IMG/VR virus record: IMGVR_UViG_3300030389_002849
Location: 1 to 24,735 of that record
Direction: 5' to 3' (one strand)
Source of the DNA: a virus
DNA length: 24,735 nt
Shown piece by piece: positions 6,617 through 21,321 of this stretch. A program made the position numbers and the translations under genes. How positions within the stretch are numbered: the stretch's first letter is position 1; each line of letters opens with the position of its first letter. The notes under the pieces are model-generated. The model had not been told where the DNA came from. It saw only the letters and a program-made list of their open reading frames with translations, and did not search any database.

Positions 6617-7417
6617 CTAAGCTGCTTTGTCCACATCCACCCAACTAGGTGTTTGTGTATCTGTTACATTTGTCCAGTTAGGTGTCTGGCTATCGTCTAC
6701 GTTAGTCCAACCACCTCTAGTTATCGTTCCAACTGCTCCTGTTCCTACTACGCCCGTAGGTACAACACTACCAGTATAAGTTACACTTACGGTGCCTACT
6801 GCACCTGTGCCTGCTGTGCCTGTAACTGTCGGTAGTACAGTAGCTGTGCCTGTTCCTACTGCGCCTGTGCCTGCTACACCCGTTGGGACAATAAGCTCTG
6901 CAAAAGACAGAACCACCGTGCCTACTGCGCCCGTGCCTTCTACACCTAGTGGGATTATCGTGTCATCTCTGATAATCCCTACAGCACCTACTGCGCCTGT
7001 GCCTTCTACACCTGTAGGTACGATGTTCTTATTCAGGGCGATACTTACAGTGCCTACAGCACCAGTACCTGCTACGGATATATTCCCGTTAGCCCCCCAA
7101 GCAGCTTCTCCCCAGCCGCCTTTACCCCATACCGCGCCGAGGTAAACAATCGCATCGTAGCCCAGAGTGGTGATGCCTATCGCACCTGTACCTGCTACAC
7201 CCGTTGGAACAACGATTCCAGATCGGTTTATAGTAACCGAACCTACCGCACCTGTACCTGCTACACCTGTCGGAACAATACTATCGTCCAGCAGGATGCT
7301 TACAGTTCCAACCGCACCCGTGCCTGCTGTGGAGATGTTTCCGTTATCTCCCCAAGCAGCATCACCCCAGCCGCCTTTACCCCAAACGGCTCCTAATAGT
7401 ACGGTCTTATCTGCCAC
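6617..7417 (-). CDS. Gly/Val/Thr-rich repeat structural protein
   Basis: The 266-residue product is almost entirely repeats. Nine copies of a GTGAVG/GTGAIG unit occur, usually preceded by IVPTGVA or IVPTGVE. A longer block, GAVWGKGGWG then A-A-W-G-x-N-G-N-I-S, occurs twice, near residues 8 and 95. The C-terminus carries three tandem WTNV-like units (WTNVDDSQTPN, WTNVTDTQTPS, WVDV). The start is GTG at 7417 with AGAGG upstream. Such regular beta-strand repeats suggest a fibrous or adhesive virion component, and the position between head-tail and fibre genes agrees. I do not recognise a named family. The DNA is strongly repetitive, so copy number may vary between relatives or be misassembled. 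Confidence 0.7.
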   Translation of the reverse strand: MADKTVLLGAVWGKGGWGDAAWGDNGNISTAGTGAVGTVSILLDDSIVPTGVAGTGAVGSVTINRSGIVVPTGVAGTGAIGITTLGYDAIVYLGAVWGKGGWGEAAWGANGNISVAGTGAVGTVSIALNKNIVPTGVEGTGAVGAVGIIRDDTIIPLGVEGTGAVGTVVLSFAELIVPTGVAGTGAVGTGTATVLPTVTGTAGTGAVGTVSVTYTGSVVPTGVVGTGAVGTITRGGWTNVDDSQTPNWTNVTDTQTPSWVDVDKAA

Positions 7418-11326: not shown

Positions 11327-11507
11327 GAGACTTGTTCCCGTAGTTCTTAGCACCCACTTTACGGCACTTAGCGATAGCACCCGAAGCGTATGCAGAAGGA
11401 AATACCCTGTAGCGTGCCTTTACCTTGTGGTAGCACGCATCCTTAGTAGACCCGCCTTTCTTAAAGGCTATGGGTCTAATCTTGCCCATACCTCTGGACT
11501 TCATCAT
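11307..11507 (-). CDS. Small basic protein with SAYASGA motif
   Basis: This 66-residue product contains CYHKVKARYRVFPSAYASGA followed by KCRKVGAKNYG and a basic tail. The Y-x-V-(W/F)-P-S-A-Y-A-S-G-A segment is widespread in small proteins of marine phages and some large viruses as I recall, with no assigned role. The start (MMKSRG) overlaps the upstream stop as ATGA and the C-terminus overlaps the next gene by about 20 bases. It may bind nucleic acid or coat packaged DNA, as its charge suggests. Confidence 0.7.
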   Translation of the reverse strand: MMKSRGMGKIRPIAFKKGGSTKDACYHKVKARYRVFPSAYASGAIAKCRKVGAKNYGNKSRGRKKN

Positions 11508-11821
11508 GCTCGTGTTCTTCCGCGCTGTGCTATGCCATCACGAGGACATTTTGTCATGCCTCCGTGTTTCATTTTCTTTACATTGCCACCTGCGGCCATC
11601 TTACCTTTTCCATCAGCAGCGTAAAAAGGAACTCTTTGGCCTTCATCGTTAGTTACCATCTTTAGCTTATCGTCTGCCATACCGCCTCCTGCAAACCGAC
11701 CTTCGTCGGCCCTCATAAACTCGCGTCCCACACTCTGTGGAACACCTGTCTCTTTGGCGAACTTAGGGTTATTAGCCACTGCCGCCATGAACTTATGTTG
11801 CTTCTTAGATTTACTAGGCAT
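11504..11821 (-). CDS. DUF3008-like small protein
   Basis: The 105-residue protein begins MPSKSKKQHKFMAAVANNPK, then FAKETGVPQSVGREFMRAD. This N-terminal pattern (MPSKSKxQxxFMxAV ... PQSVGxEF) recalls DUF3008 and many marine phage proteins. The rest is Gly/Lys/Met rich (GRFAGGGMADDKLKMV, KMAAGGNVKKMKHGGM). The ATG at 11821 shares a base with the stop of the PqqA-like ORF (TAATG), so the two are probably translated in a coupled way. Function unknown. Confidence 0.7.
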   Translation of the reverse strand: MPSKSKKQHKFMAAVANNPKFAKETGVPQSVGREFMRADEGRFAGGGMADDKLKMVTNDEGQRVPFYAADGKGKMAAGGNVKKMKHGGMTKCPRDGIAQRGRTRA

Positions 11822-11892
11822 TAACTATTTTTAAAGTACATAGTGACTTCAAAACCTAAGCGAATCTTTTCGTATGTTGGTTTAGTCCACAT
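11821..11892 (-). CDS. pqqA: PqqA-like peptide: putative pyrroloquinoline quinone precursor
   Basis: A 23-codon frame runs from ATG 11892 to TAA at 11821-11823. The peptide opens MWTKP and contains RLGFEVTMYF, with Glu15 and Tyr19 in E-x-x-x-Y. In bacterial PqqA these two residues are cross-linked by the radical SAM enzyme PqqE and become PQQ. Canonical gammaproteobacterial PqqA peptides are also 23-24 residues and share MW-x-K-P, L/I-R-x-G and EVT-x-Y, from memory of the family. GGAGAGG immediately precedes the start and overlaps the upstream stop; the stop overlaps the next ATG as TAATG. No pqqB-E genes are visible, so maturation would need host enzymes. Alternatives are a competitor of host PqqA, or a peptide repurposed for the virion. 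The match is strong for so short a peptide, but activity is untested. Confidence 0.8.
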   Translation of the reverse strand: MWTKPTYEKIRLGFEVTMYFKNS

Positions 11893-11895
11893 AAT

Positions 11896-11902
11896 CCTCT
11901 CC
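11896..11902 (-). promoter_or_regulatory. Ribosome-binding site of the PqqA-like ORF
   Basis: On the minus strand the bases read GGAGAGG, then ATT, then ATG. The GGAG core lies 6 bases from the start. The first G belongs to the TAG stop of the preceding gene. This strong site supports real translation of the 23-codon frame. Confidence 0.7.
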
Positions 11903-12192
11903 TAACATTTCCATCGTTTTCTAGCTTGGCGCAGCCTTGAATTAGGGTTCTTAGCTGCTTTTGGAAACTTTTTCATTTGTCCCGCAGAACGCGCACAAAA
12001 AGACTTACGGCGCTTTGCGGCTTTACTGCCTTTCTTAACCTTACCAGTAACGGCTGTCTGGAGTTTAGAACCAGGGTTGTCCCTACGATATTTAGCCACA
12101 CCCTTCTTGGTCATACCTGCGCCAGCCTTAGTTGGACGCTTGTGACCACCTTTAATGGTGTGGCCTTTCATAGTTCCCTTTTTCTTAGCCAC
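11902..12192 (-). CDS. DUF6321-like small basic protein
   Basis: The 96-residue product starts at GTG 12192 (MAKKKGTMKGHTIKGG) and overlaps the end of the previous gene by 8 bases (GTGGCTAA). The region GMTKKGVAKYRRDNPGSKL, then QTAVTGKVKKGSKAAKRRK and SFCARSAGQMKKF, is a highly conserved block I recall from phage proteins assigned to DUF6321. It ends RLRQARKRWKC. The two cysteines and extreme positive charge suggest nucleic acid or metal binding. The function is unknown. It lies immediately upstream of the PqqA-like ORF. Confidence 0.72.
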   Translation of the reverse strand: MAKKKGTMKGHTIKGGHKRPTKAGAGMTKKGVAKYRRDNPGSKLQTAVTGKVKKGSKAAKRRKSFCARSAGQMKKFPKAAKNPNSRLRQARKRWKC

Positions 12193-13745: not shown

Positions 13746-14657
13746 CTAGCTTGCGCCAGGTGATCCGAAGATACCCAGCGGATCAGATACACCAAAGCTG
13801 TAACGCTCACGGGCCTTGTACCGGCTGTTGCCAGTATCAAAATCGGCATCCATAGAGGTTTGCATTGGAGTTCGCACAAAGTGCTTCAGACCATTAGGAA
13901 TATCAGTCATCAAGAACCACGCGTTAGTGTCAGTCAGATAATGGTTAACAGTGTAACCTTCTGGAATTGACCCCATGCTTCGTAGCGCATTGATGTCGTT
14001 ATCGGCGGTGTTCACACGAAGCTCAGTCTCAAGCAAACGAGTTGCCACAAACTGAAGATCGGGCGGAACAACCAGCTTAGTGGGCCTAGATGCGATAAGC
14101 AGGCCGCGCTCGTCAGTCCATCCAGCAATCTGGATAACAGATGCTTCCAAGGAAGTCTCGTTCAGATCAGCACCAGTAGCAGGCTCGTTAGAGTTAGTGC
14201 CACCAGACACCAGAGGGTGTGCAGTAGAACAAAGCTCTACACCATCGCCATAAGTTACTGCGGGATCGAACGCACTGTTCAAAATTGCAGCAGCTTTAAC
14301 TTGCTTGGTGTAAGCCATAGCTCGTGCCAATGCTTTGGTATAACGTGCAGACAATGAATCATACAGGTTGTCTTCAATAGCCTCTTCGGTTATTGAGAAT
14401 CCCATAGAAATTGTCTCGTGGTTATACCTAGCAGTGAACGCTTCTTGGGCGTTGTCATACGAAATGGCCGCACCTTCGTTTTTAACAGGTGCTGCACCAA
14501 AGCCAGACAGCTTGGTTTCTTCTTCAAAAGAACGCTCTGAAGTTTCAGTTTCAAAAATTTCAGCGTGCTCTTCACCGTATTTCTCATACTCCATGCCAAA
14601 TAGGGCATTTAGACCCGGTAGGAGTTCTTTGAGTAGTTGCGCTCTTGAAATAGCCAT
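13746..14657 (-). CDS. Major capsid protein
   Basis: This 303-residue protein begins MAISRAQLLKELLPGLNALF. It has an E-rich N-arm (YEKYGEEHAEIFETETSERS), an AYTKQVKAAAILNSAFDPAV helix and a VVPPDLQFVATRLLET segment. Late beta regions read AWFLMTDIPNGLKHFVR and YKARERYSFGVSDPLGIFGS. The length, helix/strand pattern and VPPxLxxxA...LL motif match HK97-fold major capsid proteins of environmental phages. It follows scaffold and decoration genes and precedes a terminator, the usual capsid position. AAGGAG lies 9 bases before the ATG. It would form hexamers and pentamers of the head shell. Confidence 0.85.
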   Translation of the reverse strand: MAISRAQLLKELLPGLNALFGMEYEKYGEEHAEIFETETSERSFEEETKLSGFGAAPVKNEGAAISYDNAQEAFTARYNHETISMGFSITEEAIEDNLYDSLSARYTKALARAMAYTKQVKAAAILNSAFDPAVTYGDGVELCSTAHPLVSGGTNSNEPATGADLNETSLEASVIQIAGWTDERGLLIASRPTKLVVPPDLQFVATRLLETELRVNTADNDINALRSMGSIPEGYTVNHYLTDTNAWFLMTDIPNGLKHFVRTPMQTSMDADFDTGNSRYKARERYSFGVSDPLGIFGSPGAS

Positions 14658-16803: not shown

Positions 16804-17220
16804 TCATGCGCGAGTAAGTTTACTCGTGTCTTCAATCACGGCTTCGATAGAGTCATCGTTCATCAAACGATACTCTTCTTTGCCGACCTTAAAACGCGTG
16901 CCAGTGTTAGCACGGAACATCACATAGTCTCCCTCTTTACACCAAGGGCCATCTGGAAACCGCTCTTTATCCTTATAGGCTTGATCGCCCATATCGGTTA
17001 CAACCCCTACCATAGATAAAATGTACTCTTCTCTTATAGTAGAAGCAGCTTTAGCTATGCCGCCTTCAAACGTATCTTCTACAGAAGGCAACAACACCAG
17101 CACCCTATAGCCCACGGGTTTAGGGACATGTTTATCCAGTACCACTTCAGAGGCTTGTTGATCCTCTATCTTCCGCTTACGCTTTGCTTCGAGCGCAGTC
17201 ATTTCAATCGCTTCAGTCAT
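16804..17220 (-). CDS. GroES-like co-chaperonin
   Basis: I choose the ATG at 17220 (138 residues, MTEAIEMTALEAKRKRKIED). It has GGAAG 6 bases upstream and overlaps the upstream stop in ATGACTGA; a farther in-frame start at 17247 lacks these. The fold region is PKPVGYRVLVLLPSVEDTFE, a GGI-containing loop at about residues 53-55, MVGVVTDMGDQAYKDKERFP, GPWCKEGDYVMFRANTG and RLMNDDSIEAVIED. This matches Cpn10: an N-terminal beta strand, the GGI mobile loop that docks on GroEL, a GxG(D) turn and the Y-V-x-F strand. It probably partners with host GroEL in capsid folding, as T4 gp31 does. Confidence 0.78.
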   Translation of the reverse strand: MTEAIEMTALEAKRKRKIEDQQASEVVLDKHVPKPVGYRVLVLLPSVEDTFEGGIAKAASTIREEYILSMVGVVTDMGDQAYKDKERFPDGPWCKEGDYVMFRANTGTRFKVGKEEYRLMNDDSIEAVIEDTSKLTRA

Positions 17221-17410
17221 CTGAGTCTTCCATATAGTTACGCGCAAGGTCTTCGATCTCTCGGCGTGCGGCAGCTAGACCTCGTATCACTCCGCACGAC
17301 TCCTTGTATTCGGGAAAGTCTTTAGCTCCCCCGCTTGAAAGGAATTCTTCTTGTTGCGCTTGCATCTCTGCAAGTTTGTTGTTCAACACGTCAAAGACGG
17401 TTTGTGCCAT
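17213..17410 (-). CDS. Small acidic helical phage protein
   Basis: The 65-residue product is mostly helical: VFDVLNNKLAEMQAQQEEFL, then GGAKDFPEYKESCGVIRGLA and REIEDLARNYMEDSDD. I recall similar proteins, with the KDFxEYKExCGVIRGL block, between the portal and assembly genes of environmental phages. It lies 3 bases after the portal stop and overlaps the co-chaperonin start. A head-assembly accessory role is possible. No further motif is visible. Confidence 0.68.
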   Translation of the reverse strand: MAQTVFDVLNNKLAEMQAQQEEFLSSGGAKDFPEYKESCGVIRGLAAARREIEDLARNYMEDSDD

Positions 17411-17413
17411 TTA

Positions 17414-19786
17414 TCACTGTCTCCTGGGAGGCGTTTGCTGGGATTTAGCTAAATCTAATATGGCTTTAGCCTCATCCAAGTCCTGTTTAGCATTAGCCTG
17501 TTCTACCTGTCCCGCTACCCTAGTGGCTTCTATAGCAGCCATACGCTCTGCTTTTTCTTTATCCAGCTTCAAACGTGCCGCATCCATCGCCGCTTCTGCC
17601 TGATCCTTGGCCGCTTTCCGCTGCTGTTCTTGCGCTTTAAGCTGTAGTTCTGCCTGCTGCATCTGGAACGCAGGGTCTTGCGCTTGTTGCTGTGCAGCCG
17701 CTTGCGCTGCCTGCTGTTGTTTCTGCTGTGCCAACTGCGGCCCGGCTTTAGCCATACTTTGAGATAACAGTTTTTCTATCTCCTCAGGGAGCTGTTCTTC
17801 AAACTCAGGTAGCTCAACACCTAGTTTAGCGGCCATCTCCTCTCTATATAGATACGCCATATGCTCCGCAATGTGCGCCTGTAATGCAGCTATCACCTGT
17901 TGCGCCGCTCTGCTTTGCCCTACAAAAGCCATAATCTGTGGGTCTTGTAAGAATGCCTGGTGTACCGCTATATGTGCCCTATGGTCTTGATAAGCAAAAA
18001 CTTTTATAGGTTTACCCATTAGTACGGCCATATTCTCGCTAACTGGATCAGCCGGAGTTATGTCATCTTTAGTGGGTACGAGCTTATCGGCATCTTTAAT
18101 GCCCAAGACTTCAATCATCTGTCGGTGTAACTGCGGTAGGTCGTATATCTGAGGTGCGCCCTGTGCCATTTGTAGCACTGCTTGATATTGTACAACCCGC
18201 TGCGCCATCGTACTGCTGTTAGGATCACTGACCGGAATGACCTCTACCATGCTGTAATCTGCCTTGCGTGCTCTAGGCGCAGCGCGATCTGGCAAGTACA
18301 TATATTCTTCAGGGGCGTACTCCCCGATAATAGCCCTAAGCAGTTTAAACTCCTGCTTCATAGCGTAATGGACACGAGCCTGAACCGCCGCCATAGGCTT
18401 GAGAGTGCGCTCTAGTAAAGCGAGTGTAGTACCGACAGGCGCGTTGGCGCTCATATCGGAGATGTTCATATCACTGATCGCCCCCAAACGCCGCCCTTCT
18501 TCGGTGATCTGCTTCAATAATGCAAGAAGTGTCTGACTAGGCTCAGTGTAGGGGAGCGTCATTATATTGTCGCGGATAGACCCAGACGGGACATCCACGT
18601 CACGAAACTCGCCGGGGCCAATAGGAGTATCGTCCCCCTTGACTCTCAGACCACGAGACTTCAACCCTCCAGGTAAGTTAGCCAGTGTACCTGCGTCAAC
18701 TAACTGACGGATGATCGATGTGCCTGCTTTAGCATATCCACCAATAATGTGAATTAAACCAAGACCATAGAAGCCAAAACCAGGGACGTATGCGTAATGA
18801 ACAAAATGTTGACGCTTGAGCGTCAAAGGATCGTCAGGATTCCAGTTACGACGAATAGATAAAACCTTGCCGGAGCCTTGCTCAATGGTAACTACATAAG
18901 GTTTTGCTATCTGTAAGTCCCCACCTTCCTGATCTACTTCGTCTATAATCAGGTCTGCGTGGACTTCTAAGACCGTATAACGGTCGTCAGCGTTGAGGGT
19001 GTACCCCCCTTCCTCTGCTTTTTTCTCTTCTATATCGGTGTGGTAGGAAAGAGGCTCGCCTAACTCCTCTTCTATATAGAAACCAGCAGCCTGCAACTTG
19101 ACTAATTCGTTCTTGGTTTTACGCATCACATGCGTGACACGCTCCGCAGTCTCTATGTTAGACGCGCCGTAAGGGACAATGACATCCTCCGCTGGGATGT
19201 ACATAGCTACCTGTCTACCAAGATTAGGGTCGAAATAGACCTTTTTAAAAGCTGACCCTGCAAGACCAAGAGAATAGAGTAACCGTTCATGTTCGGGACG
19301 ATACTCAACCATGACATCCGTTAACTCATAGTTCATATCCGTCCGAACCCGAAGGGCAGCATCTTCTTTCTCTTTGGTTACTTCTCCTAGTATCTTGGTC
19401 TTGACAGGGCCAGCGGCAGGGAAAGTTTCACTCATTGCCTCCGCTTGGAAACGGATGGCTGCTTCAGCTAATACGTTAGAATATACACCGCAGGCATCTT
19501 CCCAGGGTTCAACGCGCTCTTCATATTTGAAGCCGAGCACATCCAGCCCCTTTACAAACGAATCTGCCCATTCTTTTCTGCTGGATGTGTCGGCCTCGAC
19601 ATAACCTATAAGCTCTGACGCTATCTCTGTCAAGGTGCCTTCATTCAGGTACTCCGCAAGATTTGCGTCAAACGGCGCACCTATAGTCTCTTCAAGCCCC
19701 TGCTCGGGCACTAAAGTAATCTCAACGCTACCATCGTCCATTGTCACCATGTCAGGGTTGACAATGCCAAGTTCTAATTCTGCCAT
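17414..19786 (-). CDS. Portal protein
   Basis: The 790-residue protein contains PWEDACGVYSNVLAEAAIRF and AMSETFPAAGPVKTKILGE near residues 94-135, and the segments YSLGLAGSAFKKVYFDPNLG and GFGFYGLGLIHIIGGYAKAG. These are typical of large portal proteins of short-tailed phages. About 115 C-terminal residues are Gln/Ala/Lys rich and helical (QLAQQKQQQAAQAAAQQQAQ), probably a coiled-coil barrel projecting into the capsid as in P22. The ATG shares a base with the terL stop (TAATG). Twelve copies would form the DNA entry vertex and bind the terminase. Confidence 0.88.
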   Translation of the reverse strand: MAELELGIVNPDMVTMDDGSVEITLVPEQGLEETIGAPFDANLAEYLNEGTLTEIASELIGYVEADTSSRKEWADSFVKGLDVLGFKYEERVEPWEDACGVYSNVLAEAAIRFQAEAMSETFPAAGPVKTKILGEVTKEKEDAALRVRTDMNYELTDVMVEYRPEHERLLYSLGLAGSAFKKVYFDPNLGRQVAMYIPAEDVIVPYGASNIETAERVTHVMRKTKNELVKLQAAGFYIEEELGEPLSYHTDIEEKKAEEGGYTLNADDRYTVLEVHADLIIDEVDQEGGDLQIAKPYVVTIEQGSGKVLSIRRNWNPDDPLTLKRQHFVHYAYVPGFGFYGLGLIHIIGGYAKAGTSIIRQLVDAGTLANLPGGLKSRGLRVKGDDTPIGPGEFRDVDVPSGSIRDNIMTLPYTEPSQTLLALLKQITEEGRRLGAISDMNISDMSANAPVGTTLALLERTLKPMAAVQARVHYAMKQEFKLLRAIIGEYAPEEYMYLPDRAAPRARKADYSMVEVIPVSDPNSSTMAQRVVQYQAVLQMAQGAPQIYDLPQLHRQMIEVLGIKDADKLVPTKDDITPADPVSENMAVLMGKPIKVFAYQDHRAHIAVHQAFLQDPQIMAFVGQSRAAQQVIAALQAHIAEHMAYLYREEMAAKLGVELPEFEEQLPEEIEKLLSQSMAKAGPQLAQQKQQQAAQAAAQQQAQDPAFQMQQAELQLKAQEQQRKAAKDQAEAAMDAARLKLDKEKAERMAAIEATRVAGQVEQANAKQDLDEAKAILDLAKSQQTPPRRQ

Positions 19787-21321
19787 TAGTAGTACCCGCC
19801 TTTACGTTGCTTGAAGTATTGCACTTCGTCTTCTTCATCCGAAGGCAATCTTACGAACCCGCCCTTCCTGTATCTCATCAATGCCAGCGATACAGAGTCC
19901 ACATAGTCATCATGCTCCCCCGCCGGGAACGCCGCAACCTCGTCAATCACCGCTTCTGCCCAGCTAGTGTTGGGTGCCCAGACCATACCAGAAGCAAACA
20001 AGTCAGATACCGCGTTTAATCGCGTAATCTTGTCGTTGCCTTTAGTCGGAGTAAACTCCTGCACTGGTATACCCATAGCCCGCATCTCGTATATCAGCGG
20101 TGCGCCCGATGCTTTCTTCTCTACAATGAGTGTATCGGGTTGCCACTCATCATATTCTTCGACCGCTACGCGTTTCAGCGTAGGAAACTCCATCCTATCT
20201 CTAAATGCGTTGAGGAGTATGATGTTTGCCTGCTCCACACCGTCTTCATCCGGTGTATAGAACACTCCCCACGTTGTACAGGCCGAATAATCCGCCCGAT
20301 TTGTCTTTTCAAACGCCGTATCCCACGCCATTAGTAGGAAATCACACGGCGGAGGCCGTTCTTCTTCCCATGTACGCCACCATTCGCGCTTTACGATAGC
20401 TGATGTCTCTGCGGTTGGCTCTTGTTGGTACTGAGCCATCCATTTTGCGTTGGGAAGTTCCTCTTTTAGCGCCCCAAGCTCGTCTTTTGACCAAAATTCC
20501 GGCCATAAAGGGTTGCCAGACGGCATAATAGCCGGAAATTCAATGACTTCCCACTCATCACCACCTCTTTGGGCGCTGGCTTTGAGCACTTTTGCCGTTA
20601 AATCGCGCAAACTCCAACGAGTCATCACAATAACGATGGCTCCGCCAGGTTGTAAACGCTGCCGAGGCCCGGATGTGTACCATTCGTAGGTCTTATCGTA
20701 GATATCCGGGTTTATTTCAGCTAATGCGGCCTCCTGTTCCGAGTGCGGATCGTCAATAATGAGCAAATCCGCGCCCTTTCCAGTAACCGCACCCCCGACA
20801 CCTATCGCAAAGTAGTCTCCACCCTTACTTGTGTTCCATCTTCCTGCCGCTTTACTGTCCGAAGACAGGTGTAGGTCAGGAAATATCTCATGGTACTCGT
20901 CTTTATCTACTAAATTTCTTACTTTTCTGCCAAAACCAACCGCAAGTTCTGCGGTGTGGGACGTTTGGATAACCTTTTTGTGAGGAAATTGTCCCAAAAA
21001 CCAAGCAGGAAGTAGATAACTGGCAAATTCAGACTTAGTATGACGAGGGGGCATATTAACAATAAGCCGTTTACACTCGCCCCGAGCCACTCGTTCAAAT
21101 GCTTCAGCCATCCTCGCATGGTGTCGCCCACTAATAAACGTAGGCCACATCTGTTTAGTAAAATCTATAAATCTAGTTTGAGCTTTGCGCTGTTTTCTAA
21201 GTTTTTCCAGAACTTTTAATTCTGCCAGGAGCTTCTCCTGCTCTACCTGCGAAAGCAGGGGTAACACCTTCGGTATATCTTTTAACGTGATATTGTCAAA
21301 GGGCGATGTCGGAGTCGTCAT
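19786..21321 (-). CDS. terL: Terminase large subunit (ATPase and nuclease)
   Basis: This 511-residue motor protein packages DNA into proheads. Walker A is about residues 90-98 (MPPRHTKSE) and Walker B about 185-192 (DLLIIDDP). A coupling motif MTRWSLRDL is near 233. The RNase H-like nuclease residues are visible as Asp334 (MAWDTAF), Glu401 (LIVEKKASG) and the Asp471/Asp472 pair (GEHDDYVDS). All catalytic positions appear intact. The start overlaps the small subunit gene by 26 bases. The protein acts at the portal with the preceding terS-like product. Confidence 0.92.
   Translation of the reverse strand: MTTPTSPFDNITLKDIPKVLPLLSQVEQEKLLAELKVLEKLRKQRKAQTRFIDFTKQMWPTFISGRHHARMAEAFERVARGECKRLIVNMPPRHTKSEFASYLLPAWFLGQFPHKKVIQTSHTAELAVGFGRKVRNLVDKDEYHEIFPDLHLSSDSKAAGRWNTSKGGDYFAIGVGGAVTGKGADLLIIDDPHSEQEAALAEINPDIYDKTYEWYTSGPRQRLQPGGAIVIVMTRWSLRDLTAKVLKASAQRGGDEWEVIEFPAIMPSGNPLWPEFWSKDELGALKEELPNAKWMAQYQQEPTAETSAIVKREWWRTWEEERPPPCDFLLMAWDTAFEKTNRADYSACTTWGVFYTPDEDGVEQANIILLNAFRDRMEFPTLKRVAVEEYDEWQPDTLIVEKKASGAPLIYEMRAMGIPVQEFTPTKGNDKITRLNAVSDLFASGMVWAPNTSWAEAVIDEVAAFPAGEHDDYVDSVSLALMRYRKGGFVRLPSDEEDEVQYFKQRKGGYY

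Follow-up and report, generated by a model that had tools for sequence, protein, structure and literature searches.

Cyanophages carry psbA and hli, small host-derived auxiliary metabolic genes that sustain an energy function during infection. In bacteria, the gene for PqqA, the peptide consumed in PQQ synthesis, usually (but not universally) is located with pqqB, C, D and E. PqqE cross-links a Glu and a Tyr of PqqA (work cited in PMC9851590). One methylotroph has five pqqA copies, three of them away from the operon (PMC9851590); because such orphan copies exist, adjacency to pqqB-E is not required for PqqA. A virus-encoded PqqA also is on record. Lake Baikal virus VP_266, a freshwater methylotroph virus, encodes PqqA together with methanol dehydrogenase, and the peptide was proposed to support PQQ-dependent methanol oxidation (PMC7678222). 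That report dates from 2020, so an earlier sequence-only reading of the present locus was apt to doubt whether its phage PqqA was the first. A reservoir study of 2026 also includes PqqA in its list of viral genes (PMC13188868).

Unlike psbA and hli, the phage pqqA considered here would supply a consumed substrate peptide, rather than an enzyme or a photosystem protein. It shares with VP_266 the virus-encoded PqqA, but here the peptide is encoded alone, in many phage lineages, and probably for a second host group. Like the orphan methylotroph genes (PMC9851590), it lies apart from the other pqq genes and may provide extra precursor dosage; those copies, however, are chromosomal.

The pqqA reading frame and its late-gene setting

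The window (the whole stretch of DNA analysed, a 24.7-kb IMG/VR virus record with 46.6% G+C) encodes, in minus-strand order, terminase, portal(-like) and capsid proteins, then PqqA, and then tail-like proteins. The terminase, portal, capsid and tail-like genes share the strand of pqqA, which agrees with the late virion operon described in the sequence-only reading. The relevant features are as follows.

11504..11821, minus strand: 105-aa protein, the downstream late gene; its ATG overlaps the pqqA stop (TAATG)
11821..11892, minus strand: pqqA, 23 codons plus stop TAA, peptide MWTKPTYEKIRLGFEVTMYFKNS; identified by family models, conservation and pN/pS
11893..11904, minus strand: Shine-Dalgarno leader, in which the upstream-gene stop TAG runs into TAGGAGAGGATT, followed by the pqqA ATG
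11902..12192, minus strand: DUF6321 small basic protein, 96 aa, the upstream late gene; 5' boundary of the pqqA insertion
13746..14657, minus strand: major capsid protein, a late-operon marker
19786..21321, minus strand: terminase large subunit, at the head of the late region

The closest terminases and portals are those of phage 023Pt_psg01, phage DSL-LC04 (Gammaproteobacteria), pelagiphages HTVC023P/027P, three cyanobacterial-phage records, and roseophages. The amino terminus of the 105-aa protein matches virion structural PHROGs. Elsewhere in the window, a GroES-type co-chaperonin (16804-17247, minus strand; phrog_3188, E 3e-13) is encoded between the portal and capsid genes, and a 266-aa tail-region protein with imperfect GTGAVG repeats (6617-7417, minus strand) has no PHROG match.

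The 23-codon frame, its ribosome-binding site and its TAATG overlap were all confirmed at the coordinates given in the sequence-only reading, which did not state the strand; they lie on the minus strand. The ATG occupies positions 11892-11890, downstream of a GGAG Shine-Dalgarno sequence, and the stop TAA ends at 11821 (nucleotide context TAG GAGAGGATT ATG TGG ... AGT TAATG CC). The spacing that it had claimed for the reactive residues also holds: Glu is residue 15 and Tyr residue 19, with three residues between. The proposed likeness to PqqA is confirmed by hidden Markov models, in that the peptide scores 38.6 bits against Pfam PF08042 (hmmscan; gathering cut-off 21.1) and 42.6 bits against the NCBIfam equivalog TIGR02107 (cut-off 20). 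In a six-frame search of the window record, the PF08042 match has an E-value of 2.5e-10, and so is far beyond chance. No PHROGs family and no solved structure matched the peptide. No promoter near pqqA emerged from a scan for the sigma-70 consensus; this fits a gene within an operon, as weak evidence. Judged from these family scores and signals, the frame at 11821..11892 is a genuine pqqA gene, evidently acquired by the phage.

The phage peptide resembles bacterial PqqA (PF08042, TIGR02107) in its length, its MWT(K)P start, its R-x-GFE(V/I)T(M)Y core, its Glu15-x3-Tyr19 spacing, and its family scores. The closest bacterial peptides, MWTKP(S/T)YQKIRLGFEVTMYFK(A/S/T)V, are those of marine Gammaproteobacteria. 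The carboxyl termini differ (phage NS, NR or SR versus bacterial AV, SV or TV), and phage pqqA is identical to the closest bacterial genes found at 51-53 of 66 nucleotides. The phage gene further differs in lying within phage late genes, with pqqB, C, D and E not adjacent.

Selection, reactive residues, and presence among relatives

Selection was evaluated in 15 window-lineage contigs, comprising 12 distinct nucleotide sequences. The pN/pS ratio is 0.13 in the pqqA frame, whereas the other five frames give 0.29 to 4.2. Of the 19 inferred changes (the minimum per codon column, rather than a tree reconstruction), at least 13 are synonymous and 6 non-synonymous, against an expectation of 20-26% synonymous; the P value of this excess varies with the transition/transversion ratio, from 8e-6 to 1e-4. 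In the window lineage, then, pqqA is under purifying selection. The gene has its own start, its own ribosome-binding site, and a frame under selection.

The reactive residues were examined with a bait independent of both: a ribosome-binding site followed by MWTKP. The IMG/VR scan returned 120 stretches, 116 of them with a full frame. All 116 encode Glu15 (GAA in 106, GAG in 10) and all encode Tyr19 (TAT in 61, TAC in 55); positions 6-10, 12, 16, 18, and 20-23 are variable. The core claim of the sequence-only reading thus withstood both of the refuting conditions set there: the peptide scores as PqqA, and relatives keep the reading frame, Glu15 and Tyr19. Two deviant short peptides, MWTKPTAKPVALNMEVSLYVTQA (L433) and MWTKPVIKEIHVGLEINCYACAEL (L467), retain Glu15 and Tyr19 with little else of the PqqA core.

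Relatives of the window were surveyed at the junction between the DUF6321 and 105-aa genes, using as bait a 190-aa neighbor protein that is independent of pqqA. The gene is present at this junction in 15 contigs (window included) and absent in at least 14 others. The empty junctions are clean (TAGTG, TAATG or TAAAAATG), with the 105-aa gene starting directly at the DUF6321 stop. Sister phages with pqqA keep the Shine-Dalgarno leader; in L342, pqqA is missing and its usual leader, TAGGAGATTATT, directly precedes the 105-aa gene, as after precise loss of pqqA. None of 80 capsid relatives has pqqA, although 55 of these extend 2 kb or more downstream; this establishes only that the family as a whole does not share the gene. 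Present in some close relatives and absent from others, pqqA is an accessory gene, and is not essential, because many close relatives of the phage lineage lack it.

Across phages whose neighboring genes are unrelated, the DUF6321 protein (11902-12192, minus strand; L260-L339) keeps about 75-100% identity, as if its gene were moving as a module. It was tried as bait and rejected: spread across unrelated phages, it was uninformative except for an empty site in L271, and the 190-aa protein served better.

Phage carriage, partner genes, and hosts

A motif scan of IMG/VR identified at least 120 viral contigs with a short PqqA-like frame, nearly all with a recognisable ribosome-binding site, and further scans raised the number with the peptide gene to more than 230. 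Neighbor clustering of 164 loci gave 20 context groups; sampled neighbors include T4-type DNA polymerase, UvsX, a major head protein, a baseplate hub, and several terminases, portals and capsids. A minority of the contigs, those with CHASE2-cyclase neighbors, probably are host DNA. In L250 and L043 (and likely in L220, L243 and L257, which are in the same context group as L250), an orphan pqqA lies upstream of a CHASE2-adenylate cyclase gene; these contigs reach 340 kb and probably are host DNA. The 72-kb L043 contig (G030) also encodes a PQQ methanol/ethanol-type alcohol dehydrogenase, and was not counted as support because its pqqA adjoins the bacterial-type cyclase gene.

Among 50,697 phage records, matches were found in nine Methylophilales/Methylophilaceae phages (Venkman, P19250A, MEP301, MEP401, MEP402, and four Melnitz variants), one environmental phage genome, and two mislabelled Acinetobacter records. 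All of the phage-isolate matches therefore are Methylophilales/Methylophilaceae phages. The 'Acinetobacter phage MD-2021a' record (L494, CAKLQF020000010.1) contains ppk and a full pqqABCDE set, and was rejected as a bacterial contig. In most of the matching phage records pqqA is unannotated; its length of 23 codons would explain why gene callers mostly overlook it. In Melnitz-1 (L126, MZ577095.1, 74848-74943), the annotated frame is antisense to the real pqqA, MKWTKPVAQEMRFGFEVTMYIMTR, which has the ribosome-binding site AAGGAGG. With cellular homologues, and with a place in bona fide virus genomes (a window with terminase and capsid genes; complete phage genomes), pqqA has these marks of an auxiliary metabolic gene.

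The viral gene lacks the usual pqqB-E neighborhood. By tblastn, PqqB, C, D and E had no match around the IMG/VR viral pqqA loci; the same search of bacterial control loci found pqqB and pqqD in 9 of 10, most of them also with pqqE and pqqC (in the tenth, pqqA lay at the end of the fetched stretch). Searches of 42 entire viral records and 7 complete phage genomes yielded no PqqE, although each of the two bacterial controls gave a match; PqqB likewise is missing from the window and from 21 further viral records (22 in total). Nor was a quinoprotein alcohol dehydrogenase found in the seven phage genomes or in two window-lineage records. Since none of the genuine phage records tested contains pqqB, C, D or E, pqqA is a solo substrate gene.

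In a genome collection of 84,980 species, the window core RLGFEVTMYFK occurs in only 10 contigs, each bearing a title of marine-type Gammaproteobacteria or Proteobacteria MAGs/SAGs (Halieaceae, Pseudohongiella, and others). In 9 of the 10, pqqB lies downstream, with operon order pqqB-D-E-C. Their G+C content is 46.6-52.1%, versus 46.6% for the window, and one of these genomes encodes about ten or more quinoprotein (PQQ) alcohol dehydrogenases. The window phage thus would infect a marine gammaproteobacterium of this kind, with a full pqq operon. Other members of the window phage family encode a Methylophilales-type peptide, ATEMRFGFEVTMYVMNK, at other positions, which suggests that pqqA probably was gained more than once, matching the host.

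Possible roles of the phage peptide

The probable role of the phage gene is that of a stand-alone auxiliary metabolic gene, topping up PqqA for host PqqB-E and thereby sustaining PQQ late in infection. That unrelated phages, among them phages cultured on marine and on freshwater methylotrophs, have pqqA and lack the other PQQ genes suggests that they feed the host's own cofactor pathway. The evidence comprises family membership, purifying selection, the conserved reactive residues, the absence of those partner genes that were searched for, the clean insertion, and the methylotroph hosts of the cultured phages. In this model, translation of pqqA would occur on the late transcript. Host PqqD and PqqE would receive the peptide and cross-link its Glu15 to Tyr19; other host Pqq enzymes would then complete PQQ. 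The phage gene would thereby maintain cofactor supply as host gene expression fails. PQQ would serve host periplasmic quinoprotein dehydrogenases (for methanol and other alcohols), which would deliver electrons to respiration during virion production. Each PQQ made uses up one PqqA; the cheapest way to sustain the supply would therefore be a small gene that is strongly translated. The model predicts that pqqA is expressed in infected cells, that host enzymes process the peptide, that PQQ rises, and that the phage benefits. In Acetobacter, overexpression of pqqAB increased PQQ by 29%, but the full pqq cluster raised it far more than did pqqA plus pqqB (PMC7936290); hence, PqqA alone may not be limiting. 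Two further results weigh against the model: many close relatives do without pqqA, and no gene for a PQQ-using enzyme turned up in the genuine phage genomes tested.

The same contacts could serve the opposite end. As a decoy, the phage peptide would occupy PqqD/PqqE, dampen host PQQ synthesis, and redirect metabolism. A competitor would bind the same partners, and all of the recognition residues are conserved. However, it need not keep both cross-linked residues, yet Glu15 and Tyr19 are always kept, which disfavors competition; moreover, the carriers with known hosts infect methylotrophs that depend on methanol dehydrogenase. Competition therefore is unlikely. Rather improbable, too, is that host PqqE processes the phage peptide for an end other than top-up: a PQQ surge against superinfection, or a cross-linked particle peptide.

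A PqqA-derived peptide, modified or not, might instead be packaged in the virion or help to build it. This would explain the late position, and in several lineages, that of the window among them, pqqA adjoins capsid or other head genes. Its position varies among phages, however: in the replication/recombination region of Venkman and MEP301, on the strand opposite to the flanking genes; at the end of a recombination-gene cluster in P19250A; beside a tRNA in Melnitz; ahead of structural genes in MEP402; and after the capsid gene in the L028 type. This variety of positions (replication, tRNA and head regions) disfavors a particle peptide, as do sister phages that have the same head genes without pqqA. 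A structural role thus is very unlikely.

It is likewise very improbable that pqqA is a functionless passenger, either a recently captured host fragment or misfiled host DNA. Such material does occur, as the probable host contigs of CHASE2 type in IMG/VR and the full pqq operon of 'Acinetobacter phage MD-2021a' attest. Nevertheless, phage genes flank the window-type pqqA in 15 contigs, the phage collection includes complete genomes that have the gene, and the low pN/pS contradicts a lack of function. Finally, PQQ released by infected cells might block other phages, as in E. coli, where PQQ blocks a phage with PqqU as its receptor (PMC12124388), but superinfection control of this kind presupposes both PqqU in these hosts and its use by competing phages, and is scarcely to be expected.

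Of competition, a particle peptide and substrate supply to host PqqB-E, the evidence supports substrate supply as the apparent best fit. In the published accounts of Melnitz, MEP301, MEP401/402, and Venkman, pqqA goes unmentioned. As far as the open-access literature shows, several elements are new: the breadth of carriage, the solo form, carriage by cultured methylophages, the unselected test of Glu and Tyr, the clean presence/absence site, and a probable second host group, marine Gammaproteobacteria. Because cultured OM43 phage-host pairs exist in which the phage bears pqqA, substrate supply is directly testable.

If substrate supply is correct, then unrelated phages of methylotrophs and of other quinoprotein-rich marine bacteria would repeatedly have taken the sole gene whose product PQQ synthesis uses up. 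This would provide a clear example of a phage that contributes not an enzyme but a RiPP substrate that is consumed. Moreover, pqqA would be a host-linked marker for methylotroph phages, and its carriage would tie viruses to marine methanol and alcohol oxidation.
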